From: Bradyrhizobium sp. ORS 278
Lineage (GTDB): Bacteria > Pseudomonadota > Alphaproteobacteria > Rhizobiales > Xanthobacteraceae
Length of the DNA: 64,000 nucleotides
Direction of reading: 5' to 3'
Assembly: GCF_000026145.1 (NCBI RefSeq)
Contig: NC_009445.1
Coordinates: 3,720,001 to 3,784,000, forward strand
Shown: in pieces, positions 61,852 to 63,144 of the stretch
Layout of the letters: each line of letters starts with the position of its first letter
Numbering within the stretch: position 1 is the stretch's first letter
The notes under the pieces: model-generated
The model's database searches: none
Told to the model about the DNA's origin: nothing
Seen by the model: the letters and a program-made list of their open reading frames with translations, nothing else
Made by a program: the position numbers and the translations under genes

Positions 61852-62937
<1,086 letters not shown>

Positions 62938-62974
62938 GGCGGGCTCCTGTGTCGGGTGAAGGGCACCTGCCGGC

Positions 62975-63058
62975 AATAAAAAAGCCGCCAGGTCTGGCGG
63001 CTTGTTCGGATATCTTGCTGCAATGTGTCAGATTGAGCGCGATCCTCCCGCCGCCAGC
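62975..63058 (-). promoter_or_regulatory. predicted attenuator (terminator/antiterminator) upstream of DAHP synthase
   Basis: On the minus strand the stem GCCGCCAG (63001-62994) and CTGGCGGC (62991-62984) is followed by a U-run (62983-62975), a good intrinsic terminator 38 bases before the GTG. The left arm can instead pair with GCTGGCGGC at 63058-63050, inside leader codons 17-20. That segment can also pair with GCCGCCACCAGC at 63099-63088, leader codons 4-7. This gives mutually exclusive 1:2, 2:3 and 3:4 stems, as in the trp attenuator. Confidence 0.85.
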
Positions 63059-63108
63059 GAGCTGTCGTAGCTAAAGTACCAATAATAGCTGGTGGCGGCG
63101 TTGATCAT
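63028..63108 (-). CDS. aromatic leader peptide of the DAHP synthase gene
   Basis: This 26-residue ORF has residues 8-14 as YYWYFSY, so six of seven residues are aromatic (Tyr, Trp, Phe). It ends before the terminator hairpin. Ribosome stalling at these codons when charged tRNA is low would favour the antiterminator. A CTTGAC/CTATAT-like promoter lies immediately upstream, placing the transcription start at or next to the ATG at 63108. This suggests leaderless translation, as reported for the trp leader of Sinorhizobium. Sequence too short for statistical proof; the codon cluster and structures make it convincing. Confidence 0.85.
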   Translation of the reverse strand: MINAATSYYWYFSYDSSLAAGGSRSI

Positions 63109-63115
63109 GGAGGTC

Positions 63116-63144
63116 CTATAGCGGTCGCGGCGCGGATTGTCATC
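63116..63144 (-). promoter_or_regulatory. predicted promoter of the DAHP synthase leader transcript
   Basis: On the minus strand, GATGAC (63144-63139) and CTATAG (63121-63116) are 17 bases apart and fit the alphaproteobacterial CTTGAC-N17-CTATAT pattern. Seven bases separate the -10 from the leader ATG at 63108. Confidence 0.65.

Follow-up and report, generated by a model that had tools for sequence, protein, structure and literature searches.

A conserved candidate attenuator with a predicted leaderless, aromatic-rich leader peptide upstream of the DAHP synthase gene aroG in Bradyrhizobium and other Proteobacteria

DAHP synthase acts as the valve at the entry to aromatic amino acid synthesis. 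Leaders mixing the codons of several end products are familiar from the multivalent ilv-type attenuators, for example that of ilvGMEDA in E. coli. An attenuator of a DAHP synthase gene has been described in C. glutamicum, aroR-aroF (Neshat et al. 2014, as reported in extracts of PMC11802643, PMC7356990 and PMC4046766), and a paper on Shewanella lists aroF in a table as 'Attenuator sensing tyr-tRNA', with reference to 1980 work on aroF-tyrA of E. coli. The view of the original prediction that no attenuator was described for this gene needs amending in this respect. Among rhizobia, the extracts of PMC7298713 and PMC10117765 describe a leaderless leader in Sinorhizobium trpL-trpE(G) (rnTrpL/peTrpL), for which functions in trans have been reported. 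No earlier report of an aroG attenuator of the family presented here was found in the open-licence PMC papers searched, and the portion available of the main text of Naville and Gautheret (PMC2965389) makes no mention of aroG, aroF, DAHP or aromatic. Given the C. glutamicum precedent, which is of the same kind, the aroG element is a new family of a kind already known.

The locus lies in a stretch of 64,000 nucleotides from Bradyrhizobium sp. ORS 278, analysed as a whole (hereafter the window, to which the coordinates below refer unless a genome position is given). Read letter by letter, the minus strand carries from 63144 to 62937 a promoter, a 26-codon leader ORF, an intrinsic terminator and the aroG ribosome-binding site, in the order originally predicted. 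The features are as follows.

63139-63144, minus strand: -35 element GATGAC, read from the sequence; a (T/C)GAC element is kept in relatives.
63116-63121, minus strand: -10 element CTATAG, separated from the -35 by a 17-nt spacer and lying 7 nt before the leader ATG.
63028-63108, minus strand: leader ORF MINAATSYYWYFSYDSSLAAGGSRSI, 26 codons and TGA, predicted to be leaderless; read from the sequence, with the frame kept to segment 2.
63067-63087, minus strand: control codons 8-14, Tyr Tyr Trp Tyr Phe Ser Tyr, read from the sequence and conserved in the genus.
63087-63099, minus strand: segment 1, GCCGCCACCAGCT, anti-antiterminator arm touching the first control codon, from its duplex energy with segment 2.
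63050-63058, minus strand: segment 2, GCTGGCGGC, 5' arm of the antiterminator within the leader ORF, from duplex and covariation.
63043-63048, minus strand: GGAGGA, a Shine-Dalgarno-like motif within the leader ORF, conserved in the genus.
62995-63003, minus strand: segment 3, AAGCCGCCA, 5' arm of the terminator and 3' arm of the antiterminator, from sequence and covariation.
62982-62990, minus strand: segment 4, TGGCGGCTT, 3' arm of the terminator, from sequence and covariation.
62978-62983, minus strand: U-tract of the terminator, six T, read from the sequence.
62944-62948, minus strand: AGGAG, ribosome-binding site of aroG, read from the sequence; an SD-like 4-mer is found there in the genus.
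61852-62937, minus strand: aroG, type I DAHP synthase (TIGR00034), with GTG start at 62937 and stop at 61852.

The leader runs from an ATG at 63108 to a TGA at 63030-63028. Its start had been placed about 8 bases after the -10 element, close to the 7 nt measured, and the aromatic run occupies residues 8-14 as predicted. All four complementary segments are present. Segment 1 extends to 63087, beyond its original limit, and an innermost G-C pair assigned to the terminator must be given up, as it would leave a 2-nt loop; the hairpin has 9 bp, is GC-rich, closes on the loop GACC and is followed by six T. The leader is the sole ORF of 8 to 45 aa (ATG, GTG or TTG start) in the 64-kb window with at least five Phe, Trp or Tyr per 7 codons. 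The aroG product matches TIGR00034 with 528 bits (cut-off 173.2, E 7.4e-159), and the AroG protein has a single match in its own genome of 7,456,587 bases. A type II DAHP synthase (PF01474) is encoded in the same genome (G000:C1:4894524-4895837, minus strand), which gives the entry step of the pathway two isozymes. Around the leader stop codon (63035-63021, minus strand), an inverted repeat CAAT...ATTG is kept in most of the Bradyrhizobium sequences displayed. The GGAGGA motif corresponds to codons 21 and 22, which are GGA in 45/46 and 46/46 distinct Bradyrhizobium ORFs, and lying near the leader stop it perhaps slows the ribosome.

We interpret the element as a ribosome-mediated transcription attenuator sensing charged aromatic tRNAs, with a probability of about 0.92. 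This reading draws on the anatomy, on the conservation of the frame and of the aromatic codons, on covariation in the 3:4 stem and, more weakly, in the 2:3 stem, and on the switching computed for the window. RNA polymerase would start at the leader ATG or within a nucleotide or two of it, and since the transcript would begin at or near the ATG, the ribosome would start on the 5' end without a Shine-Dalgarno site. When charged Tyr-, Trp- or Phe-tRNA is short, it would stall at codons 8-12 and cover segment 1, segments 2 and 3 would pair before segment 4 is made, and aroG would be transcribed. When these tRNAs are charged, the ribosome would reach the stop codon and segment 1 would recapture segment 2; with the 1:2 stem re-formed, the terminator 3:4 would form and transcription would end. 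From the sequence we infer this regulatory response of aroG to aromatic supply and its direction, as well as the leaderless start, the stalling and the weight of each amino acid.

Of 220 regions upstream of aroG in alpha-, beta- and gammaproteobacteria, 187 carry both leader and terminator. The aromatic-rich ORF that the original prediction expected in orthologues is kept, with the terminator, in 84/84 Bradyrhizobium and 11/11 Mesorhizobium-group regions (8 of these 11 from genus g60); two other sets have 50/71 and 42/54. The Bradyrhizobium regions, 82 of them distinct, come from 75 of the 111 matching genus genomes, from the order sample (3) and from elsewhere (6). An AroG match is present in 111 of the 117 genomes of the genus, in 40/249 genomes of the order Rhizobiales (five weak, below 25 bits, and 35 true), in 12/241 genomes of the class (including the own genome, four weak matches and 7 further true ones) and in 167/299 genomes of the phylum sample, at least one match there being weak; at least 80 named AroG loci were kept among the 592 stretches listed. 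The model R1, built from 65 aligned leaders, gives a full-length match directly upstream of all 35 true aroG genes of the 249-genome Rhizobiales sample, 13 of which were in the model. On these conservation counts and R1 matches a chance origin was rejected. The terminator core is in register in 180 of 182 distinct leader-to-gene stretches picked by script. The two exceptions are L099, which is not reckoned among the members, and L217, for which a wrong ORF had been picked; the true L217 leader is MAAKLYFYFFANLKLAEGDGC, with an R1 match at the same place. Finally, family f196 of the phylum sample has its own leader form, such as MQSRNFFAFYFWFSVPGGREARL, in all nine regions fetched.

The combination of leader and terminator is missing from 33 of the 220 regions. 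Eight of these are enteric loci (L097, L100, L101, L105 and L107-L110), and two others are cut by contig ends (L088 and L140, the latter still showing the 3' arm of the terminator). In L144 the terminator is kept behind an ORF with only two aromatic residues. In a midpoint-rooted AroG tree drawn without support values, leader bearers fill most of the alphaproteobacterial, Xanthomonadales and Burkholderiales branches, the enteric branch is without the leader, and a few bearers (L047, L085, L091 and L102) are placed among sequences lacking the element. In Candidatus Burkholderia humilis (L070), a Burkholderia-type leader with FYFYF continues out of the usual frame (LLASQAAGG) in front of a kept terminator, as if this leader were decaying.

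The distance from the ATG to segment 2 falls into one frame class in 69/69 Bradyrhizobium and 84/95 other sequences, and that from the stop codon to segment 3 falls into all three, a pattern of frame conservation that points to a translated leader. A riboswitch or T-box was rejected: none of the Rfam families attains its gathering score in the 12 aroG loci tested, and the frame conservation is accounted for only if the leader is translated. On the window, Phe_leader (RF01859) gives 22.8 bits and Trp_leader (RF00513) 18.3 bits, below their gathering scores of 55 and 41. Four leader peptides searched against NCBIfam and Pfam up to E 10 gave no match, excluding a named peptide family, and no plasmid homologue was found.

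Trp10 and Phe12 are invariant among the 46 distinct Bradyrhizobium ORFs; codon 9 is Phe or Tyr, codon 11 is Tyr save for one Asn, and codons 3, 4, 6 and 8 vary. All three of Phe, Trp and Tyr occur in 103 of the 127 distinct leader peptides, Phe with Tyr in 23 and Phe with Trp in one. The codons thus present suggest sensing of all three amino acids. Alternatively, the switch may in effect sense one amino acid, Phe or Tyr, and merely tolerate the other aromatic codons, a reading that we consider doubtful but of real weight: the extract of PMC11802643 reports that C. glutamicum aroR, with Phe-Tyr-Phe, raises transcription upon Phe limitation and that Tyr is without effect, and Trp is missing from 23 of the 80 distinct peptides of taxa other than Bradyrhizobium and the Mesorhizobium group, whereas the invariant Trp codon 10 in 46/46 Bradyrhizobium ORFs and the co-occurrence of F, W and Y in 103/127 peptides argue against a single sensor. 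In L071, L072 and L073 the leader stop lies close behind segment 2, which is read in another frame (..AVE). In the Oxalobacteraceae-type L071 and L073 the stop falls just past segment 2, so that the terminating ribosome itself would cover it; these three loci would reach the off state by another route.

The 194-nt RNA has a folding energy of -68.2 kcal/mol (z -2.56), a value as low as which is reached by 0 of 200 shuffles. The duplex of segments 1 and 2 reaches -22.2 kcal/mol (z -3.4) in the window, and this stem is strong in the window and in the Bradyrhizobium sequences displayed. In an alignment of 75 sequences, whose relatedness makes the shuffle tests overstate significance, segments 3 and 4 are paired in 98.3% of cells, with a covariation of 0.187 against 0.091 in shuffles (0/500), 44 cells changed on both sides against 10.9 (0/500), three pairs changed on both sides (7/500) and eight further pair types (10/500). 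With the same bias, the competing antiterminator 2:3, which uses the 5' arm of the terminator, covaries more weakly: it is paired in 79.2% of cells (0/500), with a covariation of 0.077 against 0.050 (0/500), 27 cells changed on both sides against 13.3 (0/500), four such pairs (24/500), and 11 further pair types, which are no excess over shuffles (126/500). The 1:2 stem has no covariation across taxa, being paired in 56.5% of cells against 57.6% in shuffles of the 75 sequences, with the same outcome on 65. A first alignment of 65 sequences agrees in cells and scores with that of 75; its pair and type counts for 3:4 and 2:3 stay within the shuffles (186, 59, 375 and 120 of 500). Moreover, among 77 distinct triples the flanking pairs are Watson-Crick at 0.929 for 3:4 (0.600 shuffled) and 0.545 for 2:3 (0.417 shuffled), and triple changes include L071 (T in segment 3, A in segment 4, A in segment 2) and L075 (G, C and C). 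Of the three mutually exclusive stems originally proposed, the terminator therefore shows the compensatory changes that were sought and the antiterminator shows them more weakly, whereas 1:2 lacks covariation across taxa.

When the window RNA is masked by a ribosome, the probability of 2:3 before segment 4 is made amounts to 0.12 without a ribosome, 0.03 with the ribosome at the stop codon, 1.00 with a stall at the first or middle aromatic codon and 0.48 at the last. Between the mid-run stall and the stop codon, the probability of 2:3 falls by more than 0.5 in only 9 of 18 representatives, three of the nine being Bradyrhizobium, and in L043, L046 and L075 the position of the masking ribosome, mid-run or at the stop codon, makes almost no difference. 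The complete RNA favours 3:4 in most states, so the choice between the stems must be kinetic.

These data also bear on another reading, by which the unit would mainly be a small-protein or small-RNA gene with its own terminator, its product acting elsewhere and readthrough into aroG being incidental. In its favour, the available part of PMC7298713 reports that rhizobial trpL RNA and peptide act in trans, and the last codons of the aroG leader, GSRSI, are near-invariant in the genus, synonymous sites included. We nevertheless regard it as very improbable: all 35 aroG genes sampled from the order have the element in front of them, the aromatic run is maintained despite variation at codons 3, 4, 6 and 8, and segments 2, 3 and 4 covary, which a plain terminator does not need.

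Promoter spacing is nearly fixed relative to the leader ATG. Among 93 distinct Bradyrhizobium and Mesorhizobium-group upstream sequences, the (T/C)GAC element has its end 30-32 nt upstream of the ATG in 92, the spacer between -10 and -35 is 17 nt in 90, and the -10 hexamer ends 7-9 nt before the ATG in 91 within the 1-14 nt searched. In a wider search scored against TATAAT from 3 to 45 nt upstream, the best -10 is separated from the ATG by 4-10 nt in 78/80 Bradyrhizobium, 10/11 Mesorhizobium-group, 28/33 other alphaproteobacterial and 13/14 Xanthomonadales sequences, and by 22-39 nt in 28/33 Betaproteobacteria, some loci having been assigned to the last two groups by leader similarity. An SD-like 4-mer stands before the leader ATG in 5/80 Bradyrhizobium, 0/91 sequences of the four other groups and 1/8 outside these groups. 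With the same motifs and window, such 4-mers precede the aroG match start in 79/80, 58/91 and 5/8, respectively, the 58 comprising 11/11 in the Mesorhizobium group, 24/33 in other alphaproteobacteria, 19/33 in Betaproteobacteria and 4/14 in Xanthomonadales; these counts may be lowered outside Bradyrhizobium, as the aroG start codon is fixed only in that genus.

The near-fixed distance and the absent Shine-Dalgarno site support the leaderless start originally predicted. Attenuation could also operate with transcription starting further upstream and an ordinary 5' UTR, and the distant -10 of most Betaproteobacteria implies that a 5' UTR is compatible with the system. For the leader of the window this is unlikely in view of the close -10 in most Bradyrhizobium, Mesorhizobium-group, other alphaproteobacterial and Xanthomonadales sequences and the scarcity of SD-like motifs before the leader ATG. 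We therefore predict from these patterns a leader that would be leaderless in alphaproteobacteria and Xanthomonadales and SD-less in Betaproteobacteria. The part available of the main text of a paper on B. japonicum transcription start sites (PMC4842269) makes no mention of aroG, attenuation or a leader peptide.

A second full element is present in the same genome (L277, G000:C1:4048628-4048758, minus strand; R1 E 2.1e-14). It has the promoter GATGAC-N17-CTATAG 8 nt before the ATG and keeps the genus-usual MITVAT, segment 2, the terminator and the first aroG codons. Its control run reads THRFGRWTHR instead of the aromatic run (TRRFWHFTHR in a relative), and the gene that follows codes for a 114-aa DUF1127 protein (PF06568, E 1.9e-10). 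It and the aroG element are the two full-length R1 matches at E below 1 in G000, the others being partial, among the 150 scored of 4436 first-look candidates. By DNA search, a near-full-length second copy is found in 3 of 156 genus genomes, namely the own genome, G065 (82%) and G098 (71%), and the other matches end at or before base 268 of 531. The second-copy leaders are MITVATHRFGRWTHRSSRAAGGSRAI and MITVATRRFWHFTHRNSLAAGGSC (relatives L295 and L296). The control runs of G000 and G065 are set apart by three changes, all synonymous, which suggests that this leader with its His and Arg codons is translated and under selection. The 1:2 stem of the second copy is weakened, and the computed 2:3 probability is 0.98 without a ribosome and 0.08 with a ribosome at the stop codon. 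The second copy may sense His or Arg. Tentatively, with odds that we put only a little below even, the aroG attenuator may be a movable and re-codable cassette, a copy of which moved before the DUF1127 gene in the clade of the window genome and had its run rewritten to His- and Arg-rich, yielding a new attenuator through which a gene for a small Arg-rich protein would respond to a different amino acid signal.

R1 also has side matches to aromatic leaders that, by protein reading, precede pheS-like (G700, G814, G711 and G773) and pheA-like (G828 and G646) genes; Rfam calls the two tested, G700 and G828, Phe_leader. Seventeen further R1 places were read. Besides the DUF1127 copy they comprise three Phe leaders and four sites upstream of a tyrosyl-tRNA synthetase-like gene; the remaining nine matches (L282, L283, L286 and L288-L293) are weak, look like ordinary terminators without an aromatic leader and were rejected. 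The four before the tyrosyl-tRNA synthetase-like gene (L278-L281, Rhizobiales f38; PF00579 tested for L278) have leader ORFs with a Tyr-rich run (F-V/A-YFYY) and the terminator GCCGCCGCGTCAGGCGGC; they look like a tyrS attenuator, and L278 has no Rfam match.

The aroG switch, unlisted so far, is conserved over three proteobacterial classes. Its leader would offer a mixed Phe/Tyr/Trp sensor for engineering, the wide set of Shine-Dalgarno-less leader ORFs lends itself to the study of leaderless translation coupled to transcription, and the DUF1127 duplicate would be a natural case of an attenuator with rewritten sensing codons. Compared with described systems, the element resembles C. glutamicum aroR-aroF in that a DAHP synthase gene is preceded by a ribosome-mediated attenuator whose leader mixes aromatic codons, whereas that system is actinobacterial and has Phe-Tyr-Phe only. 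With pheL-pheA and pheM-pheST (RF01859), which appear as side matches of R1, it shares an aromatic-rich leader ORF and a GC-rich terminator, but these leaders read Phe only and precede other genes. Sinorhizobium trpL-trpE(G) likewise has a leaderless ORF, here predicted, before an aromatic biosynthesis gene of a rhizobium, but it senses Trp through a leader of 14 aa, precedes another gene and has reported functions in trans. As in the ilvGMEDA-type attenuators, one leader would serve several end products of a branched pathway, there branched-chain and here aromatic amino acids. What is new beside these systems is the breadth of the family, the triple aromatic run, the SD-less start and the re-coded duplicate.
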